Shown here piece by piece: positions 3 to 18,961 of a DNA stretch of 18,961 nucleotides (its first letter is position 1; every line of letters starts with the position of its first letter). The stretch lies in NCBI GenBank assembly GCA_002721895.1, contig PBLV01000009.1, forward strand, positions 46,885 through 65,845, in the 5' to 3' direction. The stretch comes from Verrucomicrobiales bacterium (lineage in GTDB: Bacteria > Verrucomicrobiota > Verrucomicrobiae > Limisphaerales > UBA1100). The translations under genes and the position numbers were made by a program. The notes beneath the pieces were generated by a model that was not told the origin of the DNA, ran no database searches, and was given only the letters and a program-made list of their open reading frames with translations.

Positions 3-2270
3 CTGCTGACGTTCTGTTTATGGCTTCCCTTGACGGGAGCAGACAGGGGCAAGGTAGTGCCATTGGAGCACGGCTCTTTCTTTATTGATGAAGTGTGGGG
101 CAAGGTGGGAGAGCTCTCGTGCCTAAAATGTCATAATTCTTCGGGCGAAGCGAAGGACAGCGGTTTTATCCTGCAAGAAACGATTCTTCTGGAGGGAGTT
201 GAACTCCAAAATACCCATGCAGCCAACTTCAAGGCCTTCACAAAAATGGCTGGGAAACGCAAGCCAGGCCAACAATCCAGATTGCTCATGAAGCCAATTG
301 GAGAGCTTGATCATGAGGGAGAGCAAGTGCTTAAACCAAATTCAACCGGCCTCCAAATTCTGGAAAGGTTTGTTGCCATAGTAAATGGAAAGACTGATCC
401 CGGCTCGACTGCTTCTAAATATAAACCACGACCATTTTTTGAAGGAGTAACTCTACTAAAGAACTCCAGCTTATTGCGCCGCCTCACACTCTCATTGGCT
501 GGTCGCCTGCCCAATGAAAGCGAAAAAAAAGCCATTGAGGAAAAGGGGCTGGATGGGCTGAACGCGATCCTTAATCGAATAATGAGTGAGGAGGCCTTTT
601 ACGTACGCCTAAAGGAGGGCTTTAATGACATTTTTCTAACCGACGGTTTCGAGGGCAATAGCGAATTAATCCTATCCTACGACCATTTTAACAAGACTCG
701 TCACTGGTACCAAAAGCACGATTTCAGCCACATTAAAGACAAGAGAGAACGGCAAGAGGCGCTTTGGGATATGGCTGGGGTGTATCGCAAGGCGATCCGG
801 GGCGAACCGCTCGAATTGATTGCGCACGTGGTGCGCAATAATCGCCCGTTCACAGAAATCATGACGGCCGATTACATCATGGTTTCACCGTATTCAGCCA
901 GGGGTTATGGCATATACGATCAGGTGAAAAACAATTTCAAGGATCCCAAGAACCCCTTTGAATACATACCTGCAAAACTGCCCGCTCTAAAGGCGAGGAA
1001 CGGCAGTGTGCAAGAATCCAAGACAGGCTTCTACCCTCATGCTGGGTTACTGAGCATGTTTCATTATCTACGCCGCTATCCGACAACCGAAACCAACCGA
1101 AACCGGCTGCGCGCGCGCATGTACTACCAGCATTTCCTTGGTGTTGACGTGATGGAACTGGCTGATCAGGTCACCGATGCGGCCGCTATCGACACCCAAT
1201 ACAAAACTCCATGGATGCAAGCAGCGGATTGTGTGGTTTGCCACCGAACCGTCGACCCCGTTGCTGGATTGTTTCAGGATTTCTATAATGACGAGGGGCA
1301 TTTTGGCCCTCGTAAAGACGGCTGGTTCAAAGACATGTTTGCCCCCGGGCTGGAAGGGGAAAGTCTGCCGATGGAAGAAAAATGGCGATCCTTACAGTGG
1401 CTGGCCTCCCGTACGGCAAAAGACCCTCGCTTTGCCGTAGCGATGACCGAACATGTTTGGTATCTCCTCAACGGACGTAAAGCCTTGCGCCCACCTCAAG
1501 ATATTGAGGATCCACTTTTTACTCCACGCCGTCGTGCCTACCAGATGCAACGTCTGGAAATCAATGGGATCGCAAAAAAATTCGCCAAGGCAAACTTCAA
1601 CCTGAAACTGATCTTTAAGGAACTTTCCAAGTCACCATTCTACCGTGCCGATGGCCTCGCCGCCGTGATTACTCATCCGCACCGAGAAGCTGAGCTGCAC
1701 GATATTGGAGTAGCCCGCTTGTTATCCCCTGAACAACTGGAAAGAAAGATCGAAGCGCTCTTTGGCAAGCGATGGGGGCAAGTGGAGAGTAAGATGAAAA
1801 TTCTTTACGGAGGCATCAACTCACAATCCGTGACCGAACGCTTGACGGAGCCTAGTGGGGCCATGGGTGCAATCCAGCGAATCATGGCCAACGATATCTC
1901 CTGCCTCCACGTTACACGGGACTTTTTCCTGGAGCCTGCAAAAAGGCGGTTGTTCCCCGGGATTGAAATGGATGTTGTTCCTGGGAAAAGCCCCGAAGAT
2001 GATCTCAAAATCCGCAAGGCTATCGTTTACCTGCATTCATACCTACTTGATCGCCAACAATCGGTGAACGACCCCCAAGTTGACCGAACCTTCAATCTAC
2101 TCTCTGCTGTTGTAGCGGAAGCATCAAAACGTAAGGGCATTGATAAGCGTGACACGTATCACTGTGGCCGAATCAAGGGCAAGCAAGTCAATGACCCCCA
2201 TTACACCCTTCGCGGTTGGCGAGCTGTTGTGACTTACCTGTTGCGCCATCAAGAGTTTCTATACGAATAA
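3..2270 (+). CDS. Haem-binding DUF1549/DUF1588-like exported protein, 5' end outside window
   Basis: The frame is open to the window's left edge. Codons 3-59 encode a hydrophobic stretch (LLTFCLWLPLTGA) that looks like the end of a signal peptide, so the TTG at 30 is probably not the start. Numbering from that TTG, a CxxCH haem motif (CLKCH, residues 31-35) lies at the mature N-terminus. A DUF1549-like segment follows at about 145-205 (LLRRLTLSLAGRLP). Next come a TADY motif near 275 and a DUF1588-like part with a second CxxCH (CVVCH, 401-405) followed by the family-typical RTVDPVAG. The C-terminal ~150 residues I do not recognise. Proteins of this type are abundant in Planctomycetes and Verrucomicrobia, are exported, and are encoded next to DUF1501 genes, as here; their biochemical role is poorly known. 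The stop TAA abuts the next ATG, so translation is probably coupled. Confidence 0.85.
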   Translation: MLTFCLWLPLTGADRGKVVPLEHGSFFIDEVWGKVGELSCLKCHNSSGEAKDSGFILQETILLEGVELQNTHAANFKAFTKMAGKRKPGQQSRLLMKPIGELDHEGEQVLKPNSTGLQILERFVAIVNGKTDPGSTASKYKPRPFFEGVTLLKNSSLLRRLTLSLAGRLPNESEKKAIEEKGLDGLNAILNRIMSEEAFYVRLKEGFNDIFLTDGFEGNSELILSYDHFNKTRHWYQKHDFSHIKDKRERQEALWDMAGVYRKAIRGEPLELIAHVVRNNRPFTEIMTADYIMVSPYSARGYGIYDQVKNNFKDPKNPFEYIPAKLPALKARNGSVQESKTGFYPHAGLLSMFHYLRRYPTTETNRNRLRARMYYQHFLGVDVMELADQVTDAAAIDTQYKTPWMQAADCVVCHRTVDPVAGLFQDFYNDEGHFGPRKDGWFKDMFAPGLEGESLPMEEKWRSLQWLASRTAKDPRFAVAMTEHVWYLLNGRKALRPPQDIEDPLFTPRRRAYQMQRLEINGIAKKFAKANFNLKLIFKELSKSPFYRADGLAAVITHPHREAELHDIGVARLLSPEQLERKIEALFGKRWGQVESKMKILYGGINSQSVTERLTEPSGAMGAIQRIMANDISCLHVTRDFFLEPAKRRLFPGIEMDVVPGKSPEDDLKIRKAIVYLHSYLLDRQQSVNDPQVDRTFNLLSAVVAEASKRKGIDKRDTYHCGRIKGKQVNDPHYTLRGWRAVVTYLLRHQEFLYE

Positions 2271-3575
2271 ATGGAAAACTCGAAAACAACATCTCGAAGA
2301 GACTTCTTGGAATTTTGCAGCCATGCAGGACTTGGGTTGGCCGTGCCCTTTGTGGCCCCCAGCTTGCTTCAGGCAAAACCAAAGGAGCCAGATCCTTACG
2401 AAGGTCCTTACTACGTCGTTTTCAATGCCTCTGGAGGCTGGGATACAACCTATTTGATGGATCCCAAAGGAGTAAACGGAATCAATCGACTGTATAAAGA
2501 GGGCGATATCTTGACCCATGGAAAGCACAAGTATGCGCCAAATGCGGCTCATACCGAAAATGGCATGAGTAACGAGGCTTTCTTCAAAGCCTATGGTGAT
2601 GAACTACTCGTGTTCAACGGACTCGACTACTCGATCAACAACCATTCGCCTTGCAAACGATATATGGCCACGGGAAAGCTAGACAGCCTGGCTTACCCCA
2701 CATTTGCCGCCCTTGTCGCCGCCTGTCGCGGGCCGGAGGCCCCGCTAACATTCCTGACCTTCGGAAACTACTCAGCCACCGGAAACCTGATCCCAATGGC
2801 GAGAATCCCGTACCTTTCTTCACTTAAACTAATCGCCAACGCTGACTCAATTCAGGGCATCTCCCGCCTGCCTTACCACGATGATTTTGCACAAGACTTG
2901 ATCGAAAAAACCTTGAACGACCGGGCGAAGGATTCCTTGGCAAAACCTCAGCTGCCACGCATGGAACGGGCTCAAAGCATGCTTTATGCAGCCCAGAACA
3001 ATTCCAAAGCCCTCAAGCGCGCGACCCCATTCATTAAAGACAAGATCCCGAAAGGACGGTTGCCGCAACAAGCGGAGATTGCACTTTCCTGCTTCAAGGC
3101 AGGTGTCTGCGTGTCGGCAAACATATCCATCGGCCAGTTCGACAGTCACGCCAACAACGATCCCGACCAAATGAGACTAATCCCGGAATTTCTTGCGGGC
3201 ATCGACTATTTGGTTAAGCGATCCGAGGAACTGAAAATTCGGGACAAACTGGTCATCATTATACAAAGCGAAATGGGCCGTACCCCCACCTACAACAAAG
3301 GCCGGGGCAAGGATCATTGGTCAATCGGTTCAATCATGTTCATGGGCAAAGACATACAAGGCAACCGTGTTATCGGCGCAACCGATGAAAAGCAATTTCT
3401 CATGCCCATCAATCCGAAGTCTCTTTCCCTTGAAGAAAAAAATGGCATTCGAACGCGCCCAGAACATATTCATCAAGCATTACGAGAACTAGCCGGCATC
3501 GAAGACCATCCGTTCAGTAAAAAATACCCTCTAAAGTTAACCAACACAGAAAAACTCCAAGGCTTGTTCGGCTAA
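2271..3575 (+). CDS. DUF1501 family protein, Tat-exported
   Basis: This 434-residue protein begins at an ATG immediately after the stop of the preceding gene. I see no Shine-Dalgarno, so coupled translation is likely. The N-terminus carries a twin-arginine signal (TSRRDFLEF, residues 7-15) followed by a hydrophobic stretch ending near LLQA. The C-terminal half has hallmark DUF1501 segments: an FDSHANN-like motif, an SEMGRTP motif (the family usually has EFGRTP) and a GKDHW motif. The family is related to the alkaline phosphatase/sulfatase fold, but catalytic function is unproven for most members. It is usually paired with a cytochrome-type DUF1549/DUF1553 or DUF1588 partner, as in this operon, which suggests the two act together in the periplasm. 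The length is normal and there is no sign of damage. Confidence 0.9.
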   Translation: MENSKTTSRRDFLEFCSHAGLGLAVPFVAPSLLQAKPKEPDPYEGPYYVVFNASGGWDTTYLMDPKGVNGINRLYKEGDILTHGKHKYAPNAAHTENGMSNEAFFKAYGDELLVFNGLDYSINNHSPCKRYMATGKLDSLAYPTFAALVAACRGPEAPLTFLTFGNYSATGNLIPMARIPYLSSLKLIANADSIQGISRLPYHDDFAQDLIEKTLNDRAKDSLAKPQLPRMERAQSMLYAAQNNSKALKRATPFIKDKIPKGRLPQQAEIALSCFKAGVCVSANISIGQFDSHANNDPDQMRLIPEFLAGIDYLVKRSEELKIRDKLVIIIQSEMGRTPTYNKGRGKDHWSIGSIMFMGKDIQGNRVIGATDEKQFLMPINPKSLSLEEKNGIRTRPEHIHQALRELAGIEDHPFSKKYPLKLTNTEKLQGLFG

Positions 3576-3709: not shown

Positions 3710-4285
3710 TTAGTTCTCGGCGTTGTGGAGGATTTCGATCTTCAACGCTTCATACAGTTCATCAATCTGTGCCATGGTGAGATTGTTATTTAAAAATAAA
3801 TTCAGCTTCTTTAACTGCGTGAGCTTCTCCAGACCCTTCACATCAGTCAGTTGATTGTAATGGAGATCCAGCCACGTTAACTGTGTGAGCTTCTCCAGCC
3901 CCTTCACAGAAGTCAGTTGATTGGCGCTGAGGTCCAGCCTCGTTAACTGCGTGAGCTTCTCCAGTCCCTTCACATCGGTCAGTTTATTGTCTCCGAGATG
4001 TAGTGCCCTTAACTTCGTAAGCTTTTCCAGACCCTTCGGCAACTCAGTCAGTCGATTTTCACTGAGATTCAGCCTCGTTACTTTCTTCAAATCCGCATTG
4101 GTGAGTTTGCCTTCGGGCTTCTTGAGAGATTTGCGAATCGCTGCCTCAACGATGGGGTCTTCAATGAGTTTGCTTGAAGTGGCCTTGGTCAGTTCTGGCG
4201 GCAGCGATGTTCCCGTTTCCGCATCCTCCTCACACCCCACCCCCAGCACCAGAGCGAGTAGGACGGCGTGGTAGGTGGGTTTCAT
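3710..4285 (-). CDS. Leucine-rich-repeat lipoprotein
   Basis: I place the start at the ATG at 4285 rather than the upstream ATG at 4351, because it begins a lipoprotein signal (MKPTYHAVLLALVLGVGC, lipid-accepting Cys18) and sits 8 nt below a strong promoter. The mature part has a short helical-looking segment (LIEDPIVEAAIRKSLKKPEGKLTNADL), then about four 22-residue LRRs of the pattern GLEKLTQLxxLDLxxNQLTxVK. A cap-like C-terminus (LTMAQIDELYEAL) ends at residue 191. Such repeats form a curved protein-binding surface; the ligand is unknown. The anchor predicts attachment to the outer or inner membrane, facing the periplasm or surface. The repeats are nearly identical at the DNA level, suggesting recent expansion. 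Confidence 0.8.
   Translation of the reverse strand: MKPTYHAVLLALVLGVGCEEDAETGTSLPPELTKATSSKLIEDPIVEAAIRKSLKKPEGKLTNADLKKVTRLNLSENRLTELPKGLEKLTKLRALHLGDNKLTDVKGLEKLTQLTRLDLSANQLTSVKGLEKLTQLTWLDLHYNQLTDVKGLEKLTQLKKLNLFLNNNLTMAQIDELYEALKIEILHNAEN
3821..4084. repeat. Four 66-bp tandem repeats encoding LRR units
   Basis: Plus-strand unit starts at 3821, 3887, 3953 and 4019 are exactly 66 bp apart, each beginning with GAGCTTCTCCAG or a close variant (AAGCTTTTCCAG at 4019). Each unit encodes one 22-residue LRR of the minus-strand lipoprotein. The exact period and high identity suggest duplication or gene conversion, and copy number may vary between strains. Confidence 0.85.
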
Positions 4286-4293
4286 CGCCACCG

Positions 4294-4321
4294 ACCATAC
4301 CCACCCCAAGGCTGGCGTCAA
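4294..4321 (-). promoter_or_regulatory. Sigma70-type promoter of the LRR lipoprotein, near-leaderless
   Basis: On the minus strand, -35 TTGACG (4316-4321), a 16-bp spacer and -10 TATGGT (4294-4299) are followed 8 nt later by the ATG at 4285. The expected transcription start falls at or within a base or two of the start codon. The spacer (CCAGCCTTGGGGTGGG) closely resembles that of the promoter at 6416-6443. Confidence 0.65.
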
Positions 4322-4443
4322 TGGGGAGTGTGAATAGAACAGGATTCCCAAAGCTCACTGATTTAGCTACATGAACCCTGCATTCCAAAAGGATTGCACC
4401 CTACTGGGGACTGAACACCCTTGGCTCTCGGTAGCGGTTTAGG

Positions 4444-5202: not shown

Positions 5203-6408
5203 CTACCAACCATATCGAGAGATAAACGCGGGAGGAAGACGTTCGGCCTGGCTATCGCCGGCCAGAGTGAATACGATTCCCATTAATGCGGGAGTAGGGT
5301 TGCGGCGTTGGTTGCAGTTGCCCAACCCCCAGCGCAGTCCGACCGCCACCAACTCGAAGGAAATGAATTTCTGTTCCTTAAGATTAAACGTTGCGCGGCC
5401 CAGCAGCTTCGGTTCGTAGCCGATCTTCTTCGGGGATACCAGTGATGCGCGGGTCTCCCCCTCAAATCTGAGCGATACTAAATCGCCTTTAACCGAAAGC
5501 ACGGTGGATGTTAGCTGCGCCTTCTCAACTGCTTCCTTGGGGAAGAACGTGTAATTGAGGGCATGAACATTATCGAGCAGATGAAAGCGGGCCAGACGTT
5601 CCACCAGCTCACGTGGCACGATGTGCTTGACACCTTTTTTTGGTTTATCGGGAAGCAGGGCACGTGCCTCGCCTTTGCGGAACCAAGCGTAGTCCAGATT
5701 TGAGTCAGGCCACCGCTCCCGTTTCTGGTCGCGGGCGACCACACGCAACACTAGGCCATCGTTGGGATACAGGTTCTCCTTCCGGCGCCAGTTGTTAGCT
5801 GCCTTGGGATCGGGCGCCTCGGCAAGAAGCCGCTTTTCACGAGGAAGTGTTTTCCACTTTGCCAAACCCTGCTTCATCATCTCCACAAGGACCTTGTAGT
5901 TGGCGCTGGAACTGGCGGCGAGCAACTCTCCGCTGGGAGTCACCGCGTAGTGTCCCTGCGCGCCTCCTCTATTTCCTTTTTTAATTGTCCGTTGCTTGGC
6001 AAATTTTCGAAACAGCAACGCGTCCTCATCCTTACAGAAATCTTTCTGCATACGGTCACATGCATCGGCCACCACAACGAACTCGGCGGCCAGCTTTTGC
6101 ACTTCGCGCTTGGACCAGACTAACTGTCGGTCTTTAACACCATTGCCTCACGTGTTGCCCAGTGGGTGGCCGTTCATCGCCCAAAACAGAATCGGCTTAT
6201 CCTTCGCCTGCGCCTCGATGACCGCGTCCCAGAAACTCGTCTGCCAAGGTATCCTTCGGTAAGAGAGCTCCCAGTTTTTTGGCAGAACATGATCGCGCCA
6301 TTTCGCGTAGTTGGCATCCGACAATTCCTTTTCCTGGAATTTATCCGCCGCGGAGACGGGTTGCACCTGCAGCACCAGGGCGAGCAAGACGATGTAATAG
6401 ACTTTCAC
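5203..6408 (-). CDS. Exported thioredoxin-like protein with in-frame TGA; candidate selenoprotein
   Basis: The frame runs from GTG 6408 to TAG 5203, broken only by TGA at 6148-6150 (codon 87). Read through, it gives 401 residues. Residues 1-20 are a signal peptide ending PVSA. Residues 55-90 have the thioredoxin-like pattern W-x(4)-WDAVIEAQAKDKPILFWAMNGHPLGNT-[TGA]-GNG, with the TGA at the end of the first core strand, where the redox centre of thioredoxin folds lies. The remaining 314 codons are intact and protein-like (QKLAAEFVVVADACDRM, then a strand with GHYAVTPSGELLA typical of the thioredoxin C-terminal half), then ~200 residues I cannot assign. If TGA terminates, only an 86-residue exported stub is made. 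A bulged hairpin begins 15 nt after the TGA. Selenocysteine is an inference; a recent nonsense mutation is the alternative. Confidence 0.55.
6113..6150 (-). promoter_or_regulatory. TGA codon with downstream SECIS-like hairpin
   Basis: On the minus strand the TGA (6150-6148) is followed by 15 nt, then GACCGAC (6132-6126), loop AGTTA (6125-6121) and GTCTGGTC (6120-6113). This makes a 7-bp stem with one bulged U on the 3' side and a 5-nt loop with G at its second position. The loop begins 22 nt after the TGA, within the usual range for bacterial SECIS elements (known: short stem, small loop with a conserved early G, often a bulged U). In E. coli fdhF the bulged U is on the 5' side, so the match is not exact. 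Confidence 0.4.
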
Positions 6409-6492: not shown

Positions 6493-6951
6493 ATGAAGAA
6501 GTATAAAGTTCAGTGGGAGATGTCGACAATCGAAGGCGCAATCGGCCTCACTGTTGAGGCAAAAAACTGTCGCGATGCATTTAATATAGTGGTGAGGGAG
6601 CATGAAAACTCATCGCACCCGTATATTTATGTCTATAGTGGGTGGGGGCTTTTCGATCATAAAGAATACTCCAATCCTCACTATGTTCAGCCTCAAACAG
6701 CAAAGCCGCAAGTAGACGATGAGGCGCGGACACAACAACCTGCACCAACAGATGGCCGAGTTGCCCGATCAGGTGGGAGCACAGATGGCTCTGATGGCTG
6801 GTTTGAGAAGATTGATGGCTCCAGCCTTACAGAAAAACAAATACTCCTCGCACAGCTGGCCGAACTTAGGATTATTAAACGATGTGTCGTAGGAACTATC
6901 GTTGTTGTCGTTATAATTCCGTTTGTTATGGCTGCCATTATGGCTGGTTAA
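6493..6951 (+). CDS. Small tail-anchored membrane protein, unknown function
   Basis: This 152-residue protein has no signal peptide. The first ~55 residues look like a compact alpha/beta domain (KVQWEMSTIEGAIGLTVEAKNCRDAFNIV, with an aromatic VYSGWGLF strand). Residues about 70-110 are low-complexity and hydrophilic (Q, P, D, S, G). A helix (LTEKQILLAQLAELRIIKR) leads into a C-terminal membrane segment (VVGTIVVVVIIPFVMAAIMAG), so the protein is probably C-tail anchored with its N-domain in the cytoplasm. No family recognised. It has its own divergent promoter and is followed directly by TPR-gene debris. Confidence 0.65.
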   Translation: MKKYKVQWEMSTIEGAIGLTVEAKNCRDAFNIVVREHENSSHPYIYVYSGWGLFDHKEYSNPHYVQPQTAKPQVDDEARTQQPAPTDGRVARSGGSTDGSDGWFEKIDGSSLTEKQILLAQLAELRIIKRCVVGTIVVVVIIPFVMAAIMAG

Positions 6952-7103: not shown

Positions 7104-8558
7104 CTATGTTCCGCAAAAGGTCTGGCAGACTTTTTCCTCCGGCGTGGGCGGGAATTGATAGGGCTCATGGACGGGAAGACGGTTGTAGGGATTTTTTAAG
7201 GCAGCCAATAGGTCTTCCAAGGGGCGCATGTTGCCTTGCGTGGCGGCTTCCAAGGCTTCTTCCACTTTGTGGTTTCGCGGGATTAGGGCTGGGTTGTTGG
7301 CGCGCATCAAGGCTTGGGCGTCTTTTAGGGGCTTCGAGTTTTTAGCAAGACGCGCCTGCCAGCGAGCATGCCATTCTTTAAAGTTTTCGTTGTTATAAGG
7401 TTTGCCTTTTGGTGGGGCTTCCGTGGTTAAGTTCAGAAAGGTGTTGGTGTGGTCTGCGCCTTGTCGCTTCATCCAATCCAGTAGATCAGTAATGAGATTT
7501 TCGTCTTCTGGGTGTTCGCCGAAAAGGCCCAGCTTGGAACGCAACATGGTGAGCAATTTTTCCCTGTAAATTGTGGCAAATCCGTTGATGGCTTCTTCCG
7601 CAAGCTGGGTTGCTTTTTCGGTGTCGTCATCCAGGAGAGGCATGAGGGTCTCGGCCAGGCGTGCCAGGTTCCATTGCGCGATGGCCGGTTGTTTGGCATA
7701 TGCGTAGCGTCCCGTGTGGTCAATGGAGCTAAAGACCGTTCCTGGATTATAGGCATCCATGAAGGCGCACGGTCCGTAATCAATGGTCTCACCGGACAAG
7801 GCCATATTGTCGGTATTCATGACACCGTGAATAAAGCCCACGCGCATCCAGTGGGTGATCAGCTCGGCCTGTTTTTCAATGACTCTCTTTAGCAGGGCAA
7901 GAGGCTTGTTTTGCTCGCCTTCAACTTCCGGGTAGTGCCGCTTGATGGTGTAGTCAAGGAGGGACTGGATTGTTTCCCGGTCCCGTTGCAAGGCGGCGTA
8001 TTGAAATGTGCCAATCCGTATGTGTGAGCTGGCAACGCGTGTGAGGATTGCTCCCGGCAAGGGGGTTTCGCGGTACACACGCTCACCGCTGGCAACCACC
8101 GCAAGGCTGCGGGTTGTGGGGATACCAAGTGCGTACATGGCTTCGCTGATGATATATTCACGGAGCATGGGGCCCAGTGCGGCACGTCCGTCGCCTCCCC
8201 GTGAATAGGGAGTGGGACCGGATCCCTTGAATTGAAGGTCATAACGTTGCCCAGTTTGAGTGACGTGCTCGCCCCAGACAATCGCGCGCCCGTCACCCAA
8301 CATAGTAAAGTGGCCGTACTGATGTCCCGCATAAGCCTGGGAGAAAGGCTCCGTTCCATTCGGCATTTGGTTGCCTCCGAACAGCGCGGCTTTTTCGTCC
8401 GGCCTCAATTGGGAAAAATCCAGCCCCAGATCCGTGGCGAGCGGTTCGTTGAAGAGGATCATTTCCGGCTTGGACACAGGCGCAGGCGGGAGCTTGGCAT
8501 AAAACACGTTGGGCAGGTGAAGGTAGGTGTTGTCGAAGTTGAAACCGGCGGCTGCCAT
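7104..8558 (-). CDS. selO: Protein adenylyltransferase SelO (YdiU family)
   Basis: SelO is a pseudokinase-fold enzyme that transfers AMP from ATP to Ser/Thr/Tyr of target proteins and is linked to the oxidative stress response. The 484-residue protein is of normal length and highly typical. It has GHQYGHFTMLGDGRA (77-91), FKGSGPTPYSRGGDGRAALG (110-129), MLREY (131-135) and GVMNTDNM (245-252). Residues aligning with the known ATP/metal site of Pseudomonas SelO are K111, E134, R174, D250, N251 and D260. It ends CQTFCGT, with Cys at the antepenultimate position, where many eukaryotic SelO proteins carry selenocysteine; the second Cys (478) may form the known redox disulfide. ATG 8558 has GGAGAG just upstream. 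It converges on the TPR remnant. Confidence 0.95.
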   Translation of the reverse strand: MAAAGFNFDNTYLHLPNVFYAKLPPAPVSKPEMILFNEPLATDLGLDFSQLRPDEKAALFGGNQMPNGTEPFSQAYAGHQYGHFTMLGDGRAIVWGEHVTQTGQRYDLQFKGSGPTPYSRGGDGRAALGPMLREYIISEAMYALGIPTTRSLAVVASGERVYRETPLPGAILTRVASSHIRIGTFQYAALQRDRETIQSLLDYTIKRHYPEVEGEQNKPLALLKRVIEKQAELITHWMRVGFIHGVMNTDNMALSGETIDYGPCAFMDAYNPGTVFSSIDHTGRYAYAKQPAIAQWNLARLAETLMPLLDDDTEKATQLAEEAINGFATIYREKLLTMLRSKLGLFGEHPEDENLITDLLDWMKRQGADHTNTFLNLTTEAPPKGKPYNNENFKEWHARWQARLAKNSKPLKDAQALMRANNPALIPRNHKVEEALEAATQGNMRPLEDLLAALKNPYNRLPVHEPYQFPPTPEEKVCQTFCGT

Positions 8559-10448: not shown

Positions 10449-12278
10449 ATGCATACCGTGCGAAGTGTTGCCCTGTTAATGCTTGCCCTGTTGGCCGCCT
10501 TGATCCTCGGCGGTTCGGGATGTGTTTCGCCCCGTGAATTGCCCGAGGCAGGTCAGCCAGGGGATGCACGCCTGATGGTGCCCACCGTTGCTGATCCTTT
10601 GGAGCCGATCAATCGCCTCTCCTTTGCCATCCATGAAACCGCGTTTCACCTTGCGGTCAATCCAGCTACGAAGCTTTATACCGGGATCATTCCCAGCCCG
10701 GCGCGCAAGGGCATTCGGAATTTTCGCAACAACCTCTTTTTCCCCATGCGCTTTGTCAGCAGCCTCTTGCAGGGCAAGTTCAGCGAGGCGGGTACGGAGA
10801 CCAAGCGGTTCCTGATCAACAGCACCCTCGGCATCGGAGGCTTGGGGGATCCCGCCGCCAATCATTTTGGCCTTCGTACCGGCAATGAGGAGTTGGGCCA
10901 AGTGTTGGGCAAATGGGGCTGGCAATCCCAACTCTATCTTTACCTGCCGCTCATTGGCCCCAGTTCCGAGCGCGATGCTCTCGGAGAGGCGGGCAATGTC
11001 TTTCTCGATCCCGCCAGTCTTTTGCCCGGTGCCAAAATGGCGATGGCGTACAATCGATTCTCCTTCAGCGCCCGCACCATCGACCAGACGCTGGCCACTG
11101 AGTATGACGCTTATGAAATGTACCGGCTGCTTTACTCGGCCAGCCGCGATGCCGCTGTGCGCGATGCTCAACCCGAGGGCAGCGGCGAGGACACCGGCCA
11201 AGTGCAGACCCTCATGTCCATTTATGCCAAGCCCAAGGCGGAAGGCTTTGGCGGCCGGGCCGTCACTCGTCACGTGAAGCCGGTGGGATTTCGTGGCCGC
11301 GTCCACTACTCGTACTGGGCGCAGGACGGACCCGCGCCCCTGATGTATGTTCTGCCTGGACTCGGGGGACACCGTTTGGGCACACGGGCGTTGGCTGTTG
11401 CCGAGATGGCTTATGCCGAGGGTTATCAGGTCGTTTGTGTCAGCAACAATTTCAACTGGGAATTTGTGACCAGTGCGCCCGAGGGCTACCTTCCCGGTTA
11501 TACTCCGCGCGACATCGATCTCTTGGGCAAGGTTCATGCCGCCATCGAAGCCGACCTCGGCGCGGACAGTATTAAAAGCACATCCCTCATCGGCTTTTCC
11601 ATGGGCGGCTGGTACACTCTAAACCTTGCCGCCGGTGCTCCCGATGCCCACGCCCATGCGGTGGCCATCAACCCGCCGCTGGATCTCATCCACGGCATGG
11701 AAGTCCTTGACCGGTTGTACCGCGCGCCGCTGGCTGGCGACGCGGATCCCCAAGCGATTCGCCAATCCGCGCTCGTGAAGGTGTTCCTCAATCAACAAAC
11801 TGAGGCTGAGACTGGCCAACAAATGCCCTTCACGGACAAGGAGGCCAGTTACCTTATCGGGCTCAGCTACCGGCTGACCCTGCGGCAAGCCATCCTCTCG
11901 GGGAAATATCACGAATCCCTGTGGCCATTGGTTCCCCGCGCCAAGCTTTACAAGAAAATCAACGAGCTTAGTTATGCCGACTACCACGCCAAGCTGCTCG
12001 GGCCCAGCCTTGCCGGGGAGGGAGTCACCACCGCCGCCTTGGCGGCAGCCAGCGATTTGCGGAACCAAAGTGACGCTCTTGCTCAAGCTGGCAACCTACA
12101 CCTGTTCCTCACCAGCAATGATTTCCTGCTGACGCCGGAGCACCTGACATGGCTCCGGAACCATTTCCCCAACCGACACACGTACCAGGAGAACGGCGGC
12201 CACATGGGGCACCTGTGGAAGCAGGACGTGCGGGATCAAATCCGCGCTCGAATTAAAATTCTCCAAACTGCGGAGTAA
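10449..12278 (+). CDS. MlaA (VacJ)-like lipoprotein fused to an alpha/beta hydrolase
   Basis: The 609-residue protein starts with a lipoprotein signal (lipobox GGSGC, Cys25). Residues ~49-215 are MlaA-like: DPLEPINR (49-56), then IPSPARKGIRNFRNNLFFP, FLINSTLGIGGLGDPA and LPLIGPSSERD. MlaA sits in the outer membrane and removes misplaced phospholipids from the outer leaflet. From ~290 an alpha/beta-hydrolase domain follows, with PGLGG (oxyanion region), nucleophile elbow GFSMGG (Ser384), Asp558 (TSNDFLL) and His585 (NGGHMGH), a plausible complete triad. Ordinary MlaA is 230-260 residues with no hydrolase. The fusion suggests that lipids reached by the MlaA part may be hydrolysed in place; the substrate is inferred. 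No mla transporter genes are in the window. Confidence 0.85.
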   Translation: MHTVRSVALLMLALLAALILGGSGCVSPRELPEAGQPGDARLMVPTVADPLEPINRLSFAIHETAFHLAVNPATKLYTGIIPSPARKGIRNFRNNLFFPMRFVSSLLQGKFSEAGTETKRFLINSTLGIGGLGDPAANHFGLRTGNEELGQVLGKWGWQSQLYLYLPLIGPSSERDALGEAGNVFLDPASLLPGAKMAMAYNRFSFSARTIDQTLATEYDAYEMYRLLYSASRDAAVRDAQPEGSGEDTGQVQTLMSIYAKPKAEGFGGRAVTRHVKPVGFRGRVHYSYWAQDGPAPLMYVLPGLGGHRLGTRALAVAEMAYAEGYQVVCVSNNFNWEFVTSAPEGYLPGYTPRDIDLLGKVHAAIEADLGADSIKSTSLIGFSMGGWYTLNLAAGAPDAHAHAVAINPPLDLIHGMEVLDRLYRAPLAGDADPQAIRQSALVKVFLNQQTEAETGQQMPFTDKEASYLIGLSYRLTLRQAILSGKYHESLWPLVPRAKLYKKINELSYADYHAKLLGPSLAGEGVTTAALAAASDLRNQSDALAQAGNLHLFLTSNDFLLTPEHLTWLRNHFPNRHTYQENGGHMGHLWKQDVRDQIRARIKILQTAE

Positions 12279-13576: not shown

Positions 13577-13756
13577 TTGGTCAAGAAACAGGAACGAACG
13601 GGCCGATTCGCTCCAGCCGGGCGGAAGCCTATCGGGAGAACGGAATCACTCCAAGCCAAACTCAGGGTCAGTTTAAATTCATGAAGAATCTCGAAACCAA
13701 ACTGAACTCGGAAAATTCAATTTCGTGATTTGGGTTTGCACGGTAGGTTTCTCACA

Positions 13757-14419
13757 GTGATTCGAATGTTGAATTTGGTGATCGGGGGCGTGGCTGCCTG
13801 TTGGATGGGTTGCGGTCCAATGGAGACCGTGCCTGACATAAGGTCAGCTTCTGCGGCCGGTGATAAAATCGCGGAGGCCGAGGAAAATGCCAGTCCTCCG
13901 ATTGTGCGGGCGGCAAGAAGGCAGATTGAGGAAACCACGATTTATGACCCTGCCTATGTGCGCTTGAAATATCCTGGCGGCGACGTGCCCCGGGAACGCG
14001 GGGTATGCACGGATGTTGTCATCCGGGCACTACGTGAAGGGGCGGGGATGGATTTGCAGAAACTGGTGCATGAAGATATGAATCGTGCCTTTAATCAGTA
14101 TCCTGCGATTTGGGGATTAAAGAAACCCGATCCCAACATTGATCACCGGCGAGTTCCCAACCTGATCGCCTTTTTCAAAAGGCAAGGGTTCATGGTAGAT
14201 GGAGGCAAAGACAAGGCGAACTATCTTCCGGGAGACGTGGTAACCTGTCTGGTTGGCAACCGGCCGCACATCATGATCGTAAGCGACAAGACAGCGGAAG
14301 ACGGTACTCCGCAGATTATCCACAACATAGGCTCTGGGGTCAAGGAAGAGGCTGTGCTTTTGTCCTTTAAATTAACGGGACATTTTCGAGTAAAGGGGAG
14401 TGGATTTAACGGGCCTTGA
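13757..14419 (+). CDS. DUF1287 lipoprotein (NlpC/P60-like cysteine peptidase fold)
   Basis: I choose GTG 13757 because GGTAGG lies 9 nt upstream and it keeps an Arg before the hydrophobic core (VIRMLNLVIGGVAACWMGC, lipid Cys19). The TTG at 13730 and ATG at 13766 are alternatives. The 220-residue protein matches DUF1287 throughout: YDPAYVRLKYPGGDVP, RGVCTDVVIRALR (Cys84), VHEDM, PDPNIDHRRVPNL, PGDVV and HIMIVSD (His171). DUF1287 proteins, such as E. coli YijF, are predicted periplasmic and structurally related to NlpC/P60 enzymes. Cys84 and His171 are the likely catalytic pair; the substrate is not known. The gene is intact and stands alone before the sulfatase pseudogene. The gap 13577-13756 holds only a weak inverted repeat (TCAGTTT/AAACTGA). 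Confidence 0.85.
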   Translation: MIRMLNLVIGGVAACWMGCGPMETVPDIRSASAAGDKIAEAEENASPPIVRAARRQIEETTIYDPAYVRLKYPGGDVPRERGVCTDVVIRALREGAGMDLQKLVHEDMNRAFNQYPAIWGLKKPDPNIDHRRVPNLIAFFKRQGFMVDGGKDKANYLPGDVVTCLVGNRPHIMIVSDKTAEDGTPQIIHNIGSGVKEEAVLLSFKLTGHFRVKGSGFNGP

Positions 14420-15945: not shown

Positions 15946-16009
15946 GGTGCCCACTTTTGGAGCATTCCAAGCCTTAAATTAAACTCTAACCTATTTATTG
16001 ATATTAGAC

Positions 16010-16930
16010 ATGAAAACTAGTTTGAAAAACAAATCGGCTTTTACCCTTATTGAACTGTTAGTGGTAATTGCCATCATCGGCATTCTTGCCGCCATGCTCT
16101 TGCCGGCCTTGGCAAAGGCAAAAGTCAAGGCTGCACGGGTGAAGTGCGTGAACAACCTCAAGACGATAGCTCAGGCTGCCAACATGCAGGATATTTTGCC
16201 GTGGAACAGACCTCCAAACGGCGTTGCCAATGCCTATGGTGCCGGGAAAAGTGTAAATTGTTTGAACATTGAAACGATATGGAAACCCTTCGGAGGAGAC
16301 ATGGGCACGCCCAAGGTTTTAATGTCTCCCTGCGATCCAGAGGTTGTGATGCATCAACAAGGAGTGCAGGCTGAAGGCTTTGATTGGGCTGACGCAGAGG
16401 CAGCCATGCAAAGTTATGCCGTGTTCTTGGGTGCATCTACGAGCCGACCCAATAACATTATTGCGAGCACAAGGAACATTGATGCTCACAGTGAGGTGTC
16501 CCCGTGGAAATGGAATTGGGGGACAGCAACGCCAAATGCAAAGTATGGCGTCACTCTTTGGGAGGACGGCGATGTAGAAGCAGGCGGCTTCCGCGGTGCA
16601 GATGAAATTGGAGGGCATCAAGAAGAGCACCACGAGGAAGAGGGCGAAGAGCACCACGAGGAAGAGGGCGAAGAGCACCACGAGGAAGAGCACGAAGAGC
16701 ATCATGGAGCAGGTCCAGGGTTGATGAAGATTACAATGGCGATGCTGAATAAGAACCAAGGCCAAATTGCTCTTATTGATGGTTCGGCCAGAATATCCAA
16801 TGACGCTGATTTGGCGGGTAGCTTGGATAAGATGATGAAATCGGTGGGCGGAAACACAAGGTTCACAGCACCTTTTGCGACGCGACCATGGCTTGAAGAA
16901 GATGATCACGATCACGACCACGACCATTAA
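16010..16930 (+). CDS. Prepilin-like exported protein with His/Glu-rich repeat and (DH)n tail
   Basis: Start ATG 16010 is preferred to the TTG at 15998. The N-terminus is a type IV prepilin/pseudopilin signal ([20 protein letters not shown]), with cleavage expected between Ala10 and Phe11 and the conserved Glu15. The helix continues [12 protein letters not shown], typical of the large G-type pseudopilin-like families of PVC bacteria. The middle (~50-200) is a globular part with several Trp and three Cys (Cys45, CLN, SPCDPE). Residues 205-232 are a tandem EEHHEEEG repeat. [10 protein letters not shown] matches the DGSxR-like end segment of the family. The last residues are DDHDHDHDH. The two His-rich stretches strongly suggest binding of zinc, nickel or copper outside the cytoplasm; the metal is unknown. 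Length is 306 residues. Confidence 0.85.
16622..16705 (+). repeat. 24-bp tandem repeat, 3.5 copies, encoding EEHHEEEG
   Basis: Units start at 16622, 16646 and 16670 with consensus GAAGAGCACCACGAG plus GAAGAGGGC. The third unit ends in CAC instead of GGC, and a half unit (16694-16705) ends CATCAT. The period is a multiple of three, so slippage would add or remove whole His/Glu blocks without shifting the frame. Confidence 0.9.
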
Positions 16931-17016: not shown

Positions 17017-17432
17017 GAGCGTCTGGGACATGCCTGAACCCAACAAGATTAATTCTAGAATCTCTAAGATCCACAATACCATAGAGAAACAGATGGGGGG
17101 ATGAGAATCAGAACCCATTTATTAGGCTTGAGAGATATACTCTCCACCCTTTTTCGAAATCACCATGAAACCAGCAGATTTTGTCAGGATGGCAGGATGT
17201 AAGAGGACAAATATGAATAGGTTGATTTTTAGCCGCGATATGCCTTAAGGCGTGTGCTTCTCCTTATATTACCAGCGTCTACTGCAATTCGCGATTTTGA
17301 TGTAATTGCTCCAAACAGGCATCTTAATGAAACTGTAGCCCTTTGGATTACAGTGGATTGTTGCCAGTTTCTGATCACCTAATCACGCATCAAATAGTTT
17401 GCAATCCTGCTGCATCACGCTCCAATGCCTCC
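17017..17432. other. Intergenic stretch without recognisable gene
   Basis: These 416 bp are AT-rich compared with both neighbours. The longest sensible ATG frame is 27 codons (17168-17251, MKPADFVRMAGCKRTNMNR...) with no recognisable similarity. A TTGCAA / 16 bp / TCCAAT pair (17399-17426) just before GTG 17433 is a weak candidate promoter for the beta-propeller gene, again almost without a leader. Confidence 0.4.
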
Positions 17433-18671
17433 GTGCGCACGCTGTTAACTCTCATCTTCGCCGTTTCGCTTCTGGCCGATGAACCGTGGCCACAGTTCCG
17501 AGGCCCACGAGGGAACGGTCACTCGGCGGCTGATGGTCTGCCGCTCGAATGGACGGAGACGAAAAATGTCGTGTGGAAAACGGCGATTCATGACCGCGGG
17601 TTTTCCTCGCCAGTCATTTGGGGCAAACAGGTTTGGCTGACCACGGCCACGGAGGACGGCAAAAAACTTTTTGCCGTTTGTGTGGACAAGGATACGGGCA
17701 AGGTGCTGCATGATCTGCATCTGTTTGATGTCGCCAAACCGCAGCGGATCACGCGTGACAATACGTACGCTTCGCCCACGCCGGCCATCGAAAAGGGGCG
17801 TGTGTTTTTGCACTTTGGCACCTACGGCACGGCGTGTGTGGATACCACCACCGGCAAGGTGCTTTGGCAGCGGCGCGATTTGAATTGCGACCACGAAGCC
17901 GGCGCCGGACCGGCCAGTTCGCCGATGCTTTTTGGGAACACGATGATCGTGCACGTCGACGGACGGGACGTGCAGTACATCGTTGCGCTGGACACCGCCA
18001 CCGGCAAGACGGTGTGGAAGACGCCCCGCTCGCTCGATTACAGCAAGTTCCCCGTGCACCATCGCAAGGCGTACTGCATGCCGATGCTCGTGCCGCGCGG
18101 CACAGGCCAACAACTCATCAGCCCTGCCGGGCGTGGCCTGTACGCGTACGATCCGAAAACCGGCAAGGAGCTTTGGCACATGCGCCATCGCGGCTGGTCC
18201 GTGGCGCCCCGGCCGATCTTTGGGCACGGGCTCATCTTCGCCACCATCGACCGCGACAACCCTGAACTGTGGGCCATCCGCCCCGACGGCAAGGGTGACA
18301 TCACCGATACCCACATTGCCTGGAGCGAAAAACGCGGCATGCCCGAGCGCAGTTCGCCGTTGCTGGTGGATGACCTGCTCTATTTTGTAAATCGCGGCGG
18401 CATCGCCACCTGCCTCGAGGCCAAGACCGGCAAGGAGGTTTGGAAGGAACGCCTCAAGGGTGCGTACTCCGCCTCACCGATTTACGCCAAAGGCCGCATT
18501 TATTTTTTCAACGAAACTGCTGTCGCCACAGTCCTGCGCCCGGGACGCAAGTTCGAGGTGATCGCCACCAGCGCCCTCGCTCCCCAACCCCTCCTCGCCA
18601 CGCCGGCGGTGGATGACAATGCGTTCATCATTCGCACCGGCAGCCATTTGTATCGCGTCGAGAAGCGCTGA
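17433..18671 (+). CDS. Secreted PQQ-like beta-propeller protein
   Basis: The frame is open from 17343, but I choose GTG 17433 because it begins a clean signal peptide (VRTLLTLIFAVSLLA, then DEPWPQFRGP). The 412-residue product is an outer-membrane-assembly/PQQ-like beta-propeller. PWPQFRGPRGNG is the usual PVC N-terminal signature, and blade motifs recur as TGKVLW, TGKTVW, TGKELW and TGKEVW, each followed by a strand. Most such Verrucomicrobia and Planctomycetes proteins lack demonstrated PQQ binding or dehydrogenase activity and may be scaffolds. The C-terminus reaches a final strand (AFIIRTGSHLYRVEKR), so it seems complete. GC is higher than in the preceding intergenic region. It converges with the DUF1585-type gene, with 23 bp between stops. 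Confidence 0.85.
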   Translation: MRTLLTLIFAVSLLADEPWPQFRGPRGNGHSAADGLPLEWTETKNVVWKTAIHDRGFSSPVIWGKQVWLTTATEDGKKLFAVCVDKDTGKVLHDLHLFDVAKPQRITRDNTYASPTPAIEKGRVFLHFGTYGTACVDTTTGKVLWQRRDLNCDHEAGAGPASSPMLFGNTMIVHVDGRDVQYIVALDTATGKTVWKTPRSLDYSKFPVHHRKAYCMPMLVPRGTGQQLISPAGRGLYAYDPKTGKELWHMRHRGWSVAPRPIFGHGLIFATIDRDNPELWAIRPDGKGDITDTHIAWSEKRGMPERSSPLLVDDLLYFVNRGGIATCLEAKTGKEVWKERLKGAYSASPIYAKGRIYFFNETAVATVLRPGRKFEVIATSALAPQPLLATPAVDDNAFIIRTGSHLYRVEKR

Positions 18672-18694: not shown

Positions 18695-18961
18695 TCATCG
18701 GTCCTGCCGGAACCGAAACTGCTTCGATAAAACGATCTGTTCGATGAACGTGTTTGTCTTGTAGCCGTCCTTTTTCGCCGCGCTGATGATTTGCTCCAAT
18801 GCCACACGATCGTACGGCTGCAGCTTGCGGCCGAGGGCGTAGGCGAAAAGTTGGCGGGCGAAATTTTCGGCGATGTCGTCGCGGTACAGCTCGAGCAATA
18901 GCGTTTTCATTTCGCGGGGTGTCTTGAACGCCTTGCCATTGGGCATCACGCCGGAGGAAAC
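18695..18961 (-). CDS. C-terminal end of a DUF1592/DUF1588/DUF1585-type protein, cut by window edge
   Basis: The minus-strand frame is open to the right edge (VSSGVMPNGKAF before the first in-window Met), so only the last 88 codons are present. They match the DUF1585 C-terminal domain of planctomycete-type cytochrome proteins: GVMPNGKAFKTPREMKTLLL (usual pattern GxLPDGxxFxxxxELKxLL), ENFARQLFAYALGRKLQPYD, IISAAKKDGYKTNTFIEQIV and the ending SKQFRFRQ. The missing part should carry the DUF1592 and DUF1588 domains and a haem CxxCH. A DUF1501 gene would be expected nearby, outside the window. Confidence 0.85.
   Translation of the reverse strand, partial: VSSGVMPNGKAFKTPREMKTLLLELYRDDIAENFARQLFAYALGRKLQPYDRVALEQIISAAKKDGYKTNTFIEQIVLSKQFRFRQDR

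Follow-up and report, generated by a model that had tools for sequence, protein, structure and literature searches.

A very probable selenoprotein gene in a Verrucomicrobiales bacterium, read through an in-frame TGA that is conserved among its relatives

RESULTS

A reading frame with a single internal TGA

The window, by which we mean the whole stretch of 18,961 nucleotides analyzed here from contig PBLV01000009.1 of a Verrucomicrobiales bacterium, carries on its minus strand a gene with one in-frame TGA. Translation from 6408 to 5203 gives 86 codons, the TGA (6150-6148), 314 further codons, and a TAG, in agreement with an earlier note on this DNA that had described a single frame across the TGA and proposed a selenoprotein. 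The GTG at 6408 is a fitting start codon, with which the ATG starts of relatives align; upstream of it, the same open frame extends to an ATG at 6603. The gene and its features are as follows.

5203..6408, minus strand: gene for a very probable selenoprotein of 401 residues, with the internal TGA as selenocysteine (Sec) at 87 (GTG start, TAG stop)
6346..6408, minus strand: probable signal peptide, residues 1-21, with export inferred (from the sequence and its alignment with relatives)
5929..6291, minus strand: putative thioredoxin-like domain, approximately residues 40-160, with the motif GHPLGNT-Sec-GNG (from weak profile matches to thioredoxin-fold chains and weak Pfam matches in some relatives)
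6148..6150, minus strand: in-frame TGA, very probably read as Sec (residue 87)
6113..6132, minus strand: bSECIS-type hairpin, nucleotides 16-35 after the TGA, with a 7-pair stem, one bulged U, and the apical loop AGUUA (G at the second position)
5206..5916, minus strand: conserved C-terminal region, approximately residues 165-401 (from conserved columns; no known domain)

In a six-frame scan, the TGA at 6150 was the sole TGA in the window that was preceded by more than 60 codons since the last stop and followed by more than 200. The same triplet is the final stop of three of the 14 window frames checked (13730-14419, 17343-18671, and 18695-18949), as the earlier note had said of other genes here, and the genetic code is thus not generally changed. 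The note had also credited the gene with its own intact promoter. That claim was not borne out, since 3 promoter-like sites were found in 1.7 kb, compared with a mean of 1.1 in shuffled sequences.

We compared substitution rates on the two sides of the TGA with those of relatives, all six of which (L001-L004, L029, and L030) keep the TGA. Against five close relatives (L001-L004 and L029), dN was 0.03-0.07 and dS 0.95-2.0 for residues 23-86, and dN was 0.04-0.13 and dS 0.56-1.1 for residues 88-401. Against the more distant L030, dN was 0.28 before the TGA and 0.24 after it, with dS saturated (infinite) and 3.1, respectively. These comparisons indicate that purifying selection is acting on both sides of the TGA.

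Other genes of the window include one for a SelO protein adenylyltransferase close by (7104-8558, minus strand; Pfam E = 2e-115). Farther along, a single frame (10449-12278, plus strand) joins an MlaA lipoprotein domain to an alpha/beta hydrolase-like region, and another (15998-16930, plus strand) encodes a pilin-like protein with an N-terminal methylation motif and a His/Glu and Asp/His repeat tail that is perhaps metal binding.

Conservation of the TGA in two phyla

To characterize the family, we searched a protein database (5.8 billion entries) with the read-through product, which returned 464 relatives, and examined the best 120 of these 464. All five loci from named genomes, labelled Verrucomicrobiota except for one labelled Planctomycetaceae, have TGA at codon 87. 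When a single sequence was searched against the phylum of genome G002, 3 of 387 genomes matched. The match in G201 is weak and free of stops, and every other match carries the TGA; a second TGA in G245 is the final stop of its gene. In a draw of genomes from the order, 16 of 293 matched, and all 24 of the listed matches that cover codon 87 carry one TGA.

A profile built from an 18-row read-through alignment was more sensitive than the single-sequence search. The rows of this alignment were picked from the matches and share 27-90% identity with the window, and 13 of its columns, that of the TGA among them, are invariant. With the profile, 18 of 20 genomes of one family matched, three of them (G592, G601, and G621) only through weak stop-free stretches. 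Matches were also found, many of them weak, in 129 of 294 genomes from the phylum of the genome labelled Planctomycetaceae, and at least 77 of the 294 have the strong TGA form. This second phylum besides Verrucomicrobiota is presumably Planctomycetota.

Among 70 rows from second-phylum loci (L081-L150), the Sec column holds TGA in 61, Asp in 5, Ser in 1, and Cys in 3. Loci L081-L110 are the best matches, while L111-L150 were chosen by hand and deliberately include long stop-free matches, so that the share of codons other than TGA is, if anything, too high. Two loci (L120 and L121) gave no row, and L081 is the L003 gene again. We then constructed a maximum-likelihood tree of 94 rows, comprising 87 with TGA, 5 with Asp, 1 with Ser, and a DUF255-type outlier with Cys; L116 and L117 were left out. 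Counting the window, 87 of the tree's 93 family rows keep the UGA at one alignment column, and the Cys or Sec that the earlier note had proposed to look for at residue 87 of homologs is overwhelmingly a TGA. The window gene groups with L005, L004, L001, and L002, all labelled Verrucomicrobiota. Some branches of the tree are long, and the placement of L113 and L118 is unsure.

A hairpin downstream of the TGA

A SECIS-type hairpin with a G in its small apical loop follows the TGA, lying 12-30 or 16-35 nucleotides past it depending on the group. Covariation was tested in 15 sequences (14 distinct) chosen for one common register, which differs from that of the window. In this sister group, the stem pairs nucleotides 15-21 with 27-33 (the TGA being 1-3), 89.8% of cells are paired, and five of the seven pairs show changes on both sides. 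The covariation score was 0.414, compared with 0.207 in shuffles (none of 500 as high) and 0.006-0.119 when the stem was slid along the alignment. For further pair types, 42 of 500 shuffles reached the observed value. The loop CGUG is invariant in all 15 sequences.

In the group of the window, the stem pairs nucleotides 19-25 with 31-38 around a bulged U, and the window itself forms seven of seven pairs. Across 52 sequences, pairing was 82.4%, compared with 11-51% when slid; this count omits L081 as a repeat and nine divergent loci that were removed manually, three of which the motif search missed anyway. Changes on both sides of a pair were few (7) and not above the slid controls (6-15), so that covariation proper is shown for the sister group only. 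The folding energy of the window hairpin is modest (z = -2.14, with 7 of 200 shuffles as good).

Association with the selenocysteine machinery

Nearly all genomes that carry the TGA form also encode the machinery for selenocysteine. Either selB over the cut-off or tRNA-Sec was detected in 92 of 93 genomes with the strong TGA form. In the phylum draw, selB exceeded the cut-off in 73 of 77 TGA-bearing genomes but in only 117 of the 217 others (one-sided Fisher test, P = 1.9e-12); in the order draw, the corresponding counts were 14 of 16 and 66 of 277 (P = 3.8e-7). Because related genomes are not independent, both P values are somewhat too low. The 77 genomes were selected by eye from the best matches listed, on the basis of a TGA-bearing match with an E value no higher than 1e-20, and selB status in the phylum draw was read from the best E values. 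The "others" include weaker matches and fragments that lack the Sec column (such as G761 and G798), and they may contain unseen members, of which G637 in the order draw is one.

All four selB exceptions of the phylum draw have tRNA-Sec (67.5-74.2 bits) together with selA over the cut-off. Of the two order-draw exceptions, G615 has tRNA-Sec and a partial selA, while G641, a 1.7-Mb and probably incomplete assembly, lacks selA, and its sole tRNA match scores 47.2 bits. A match of 47.2 bits in G001, although counted as over the cut-off, was rejected as tRNA-Sec, since ARAGORN types it as tRNA-Ser, and that of G641 is probably of the same kind. ARAGORN confirmed tRNA-Sec with the anticodon UCA in four of five relatives' genomes. 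The genome of L005, the nearest kin of the window gene, has both selB and selC.

Forms without a TGA

Pairs of Sec- and Cys-containing homologs are the usual proof of a selenoprotein. Here, our searches found no full-length Cys homolog, including among 217 database proteins fetched. Cys was seen at the Sec column only in the remote thioredoxin-like L116, L117, and L118. One of these, L117 from genome G688, is a 232-residue frame encoding a single-domain protein, and on its account we dropped an initial reading of the family as one without any Cys relative. In G688, there was no selA match and neither selB nor tRNA-Sec over the cut-off.

Within the family, a sense codon at this column instead specifies Asp in five rows and Ser in one. 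The earlier note had held that homologs with a residue other than Cys or Sec would speak against a selenoprotein. Such homologs do exist, but in the tree they fall among Sec forms, with Asp requiring at least three changes, and they either accompany a TGA copy as paralogs or come from genomes in which no Sec machinery was detected. For example, G776 and G853, in which the Asp form is the only match, gave no selA match and neither selB nor tRNA-Sec over the cut-off. In a further case (L151, 10103-13999, minus strand, from G840), the Asp form makes up the C-terminal portion of a long frame, and the start of that frame resembles a Ser/Thr kinase by eye.

Domains and the Sec motif

The N-terminal domain is tentatively thioredoxin-like. 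In a search of PDB with the family profile, the best match was AGR2 (E = 0.037), and 3ira, a DUF255-type protein, matched at E = 0.59 and 0.2. The match to AGR2/AGR3, which have a thioredoxin fold, is nonsignificant and speaks for a fold resemblance at most. Against Pfam, the window protein matched no family at E = 1. Across Pfam and NCBIfam it had no real match, and an IS630 hit (E = 0.039) was rejected as far below the cut-off. At E up to 0.1, Thioredoxin_7 (PF13899) matched 6 of 28 members and DUF255/Thioredox_DsbH (PF03190) matched 5 of 28, in both cases over the thioredoxin-like domain and in neither case with the window among them. The best E values among these members were 0.005 for Thioredoxin_7 and 0.0023 for DUF255, a separate search of relatives gave 0.0044 and 0.0017, respectively, and neither model gave a whole-protein match at a significant score. 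Altogether, no Pfam or NCBIfam cut-off was reached by the 28 members or the window protein, and the C-terminal region (about 235 residues) had no shared match in either collection.

The earlier note had placed the TGA where thioredoxin folds have their catalytic Cys. The profile alignments, weak as they are, favor this placement and refine it: the residue opposite Sec is the second CxxC cysteine, in CHWC of 3ira and of L118. We counted the Cys residues that precede Sec in 84 aligned members rather than 87, because a second alignment had misplaced the Sec column in six divergent rows (three Sec and three Asp). A Cys lies two residues before Sec in 66 of the 84, three before in 5, one before in 4, and four before in 1. 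The remaining 8 have no nearby Cys. The window copy (GNT-Sec) is among these, as the earlier note had recognized, and its loss of Cys-85 looks derived because most Sec members have a Cys there.

Database annotation and known selenoprotein families

Gene-finding programs cut the proteins of this family in half at the TGA codon. Among the 217 database proteins fetched, 210 start after the TGA and 6 end at the codon preceding it. No entry reads across the position with Cys, and P0121 is the only one to span it at all. Its Trp at the Sec column comes either from gene calling under code 4 or from a genuine TGG codon. In two entries (P0123 and P0217), an N-terminal half that ends exactly one codon before the TGA is fused to unrelated N-terminal material. 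The secretin domains PF03958 and PF00263 are present in P0217. No relatives were found in viral contigs or plasmids.

We compared the family with described selenoproteins. The closest in kind are the VPGUxxT thioredoxin-like (seleno)proteins (NF041382 and NF041383, types 1 and 2), which likewise have a thioredoxin-like domain with Sec. Type 2 was matched weakly by 4 of 28 members and type 1 by 2 of 28, over the thioredoxin-like domain and at 13.2-18.5 bits, far from the cut-offs (at most 18.5 bits against 275 for type 2 and at most 17.7 against 350 for type 1). To judge by its name, the VPGUxxT family has Sec at the first place of UxxT, whereas Sec takes the second place here (C-x-U or C-x-x-U), and its models leave the C-terminal part of the present family unmatched. 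A second likeness is to CxU/CxxU selenoproteins, which according to the accessible part of a 2026 review (PMC13188914, Table 1) include the UshA-like NF041198, Trx7/PDZ NF041199, and TsoC with its NEPxGxxU motif (NF045708). As in most members here, these have a Cys two or three residues before Sec or the pattern P-x-G-x-x-U; the likeness to the TsoC motif was compared by name only. None of the three models matched the window (E = 1), the 28 members (E = 0.1), or 10 members (E = 1).

The same review counts 119 prokaryotic selenoprotein families and subfamilies, and within its accessible part, we recognized none as the present family by name, domain, or motif. Nor was the family recognizable in the accessible part of a survey that lists marine selenoprotein families by domain and motif (PMC2398784). 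Selenoproteins have been reported in two planctomycetes, as far as the available text of PMC4807772 goes. In the open-license literature, no title or abstract described the present family.

DISCUSSION

Very probably a selenoprotein, and likely one with a redox function

A TGA conserved throughout a deep family, a bSECIS-type hairpin behind it, and Sec machinery in nearly all TGA-bearing genomes together argue that the earlier note was right to propose a selenoprotein, and we consider it very probable that the window TGA is read as Sec. SelB and tRNA-Sec would decode the UGA at 6150-6148 as directed by the hairpin 16-35 nucleotides downstream, and the ribosome would then produce a single protein of 401 residues with Sec at position 87. 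The protein is probably exported. Its N-terminal part would adopt a divergent thioredoxin-like fold in which Sec occupies the position of the second CxxC cysteine, giving a Sec-based redox center that would lie outside the cytoplasm. Most relatives have a Cys two positions ahead of Sec (C-T-U), and the two residues could be joined in a selenenylsulfide. In the window copy and its closest kin, this Cys is lost, so that Sec most likely works alone there and the partner thiol would come from elsewhere. Sec insertion in the organism, export, and thiol/disulfide or peroxide chemistry are all inferred here from sequence.

The redox step is likely, and it is less sure than the selenoprotein reading itself. 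Conceivably, the protein is a selenoprotein whose Sec domain is no working thioredoxin-type redox enzyme and serves instead in metal binding, structure, or scavenging. The Cys partner shifts in position (U-1 to U-4) or is absent altogether in 8 of 84 members, the in-family sense forms have Asp or Ser in place of Sec, and one Asp form is the C-terminal end of a kinase-like frame. On the other hand, the C-x-U motif with its nearby Cys is kept in 66 of 84 members, and a remote homolog has Cys at the Sec column. On balance, we regard a nonredox role as rather unlikely.

The annotations suggest a different possibility, namely, that the TGA ends a short exported peptide and that the downstream part is a separate, internally started protein, as most of the fetched database entries have it. 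A GTG is indeed found at the fourth codon after the TGA in 49 of 84 sequences. However, the other 35 have no start codon at that site, including the window (GTT), and each other position within the first 15 codons past the TGA holds a start codon in at most 2 of 84. This pattern shows that internal initiation does not explain the annotated downstream halves. Moreover, a split into two proteins would cut through the thioredoxin-like domain and would leave both the hairpin and the link to the Sec machinery unexplained. We consider such a pair of proteins very improbable. It is equally hard to credit that a reassigned code or leaky read-through places Trp or some other standard amino acid at the TGA. 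The Trp of P0121 would fit this idea, but of 26 family genes listed, 15 terminate with TGA, as do the three window frames noted above, and the sense-codon members of the family among our loci have Asp or Ser and never Trp. A reading as an ordinary amino acid also offers no reason for the link to selA, selB, and tRNA-Sec. Least credible of all is the idea that the gene is a recent pseudogene with a true stop or that the TGA is an error of sequencing: databases do treat the TGA as a stop codon, but its conservation in many genomes refutes this account, and the purifying selection on both sides speaks against it.

Taking Sec at codon 87 as the preferred reading, we lean slightly toward the view that the window gene represents a large, so far uncatalogued, and nearly Sec-obligate family, in which Sec is ancestral and has been given up for Asp or Ser, or by loss of the gene, and not for Cys. 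If so, a family with Sec in 87 of 93 tree rows and otherwise Asp or Ser would expose a blind spot of pipelines that require Cys homologs, and the number of selenium-dependent genes would rise in two environmental phyla. Judging from the accessible parts of the sources, one discovery pipeline keeps candidates only with Cys homologs (PMC1088965), and another asks for Cys homologs or a known Sec homolog (PMC12013277). The authors of the latter acknowledge that selenoproteins lacking Cys homologs may escape their method, and they state that such homologs now seem to exist for all known selenoproteins. This restriction need not apply to SECIS-based searches, according to the consulted portion of PMC13188914. 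The family could also serve as a case for asking why Sec is kept, perhaps for chemistry that Cys cannot do here.

Neighboring genes and gene ends

Genes of cytochrome c, DUF1501, and DUF1552 types are common in these phyla. Three loci have PSD4/DUF1501-type or planctomycete cytochrome c plus DUF1552 genes near the selenoprotein gene (window 30-3575, plus strand; L002, 9467-13005; and L003, 521-3472). No conserved partner gene emerged from ten frames surrounding the selenoprotein gene in L002, L003, and L004. In genome G002, a leucine-rich-repeat gene directly follows a C-terminal scrap of the selenoprotein gene (L026; G002:C19:51053-51133), and the leader of this repeat gene is nearly identical to that of the full selenoprotein. 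A leucine-rich-repeat gene with a similar leader also lies near the selenoprotein gene in the window (3710-4351, minus strand). The shared leaders and the scrap look like the product of recombination of gene ends.
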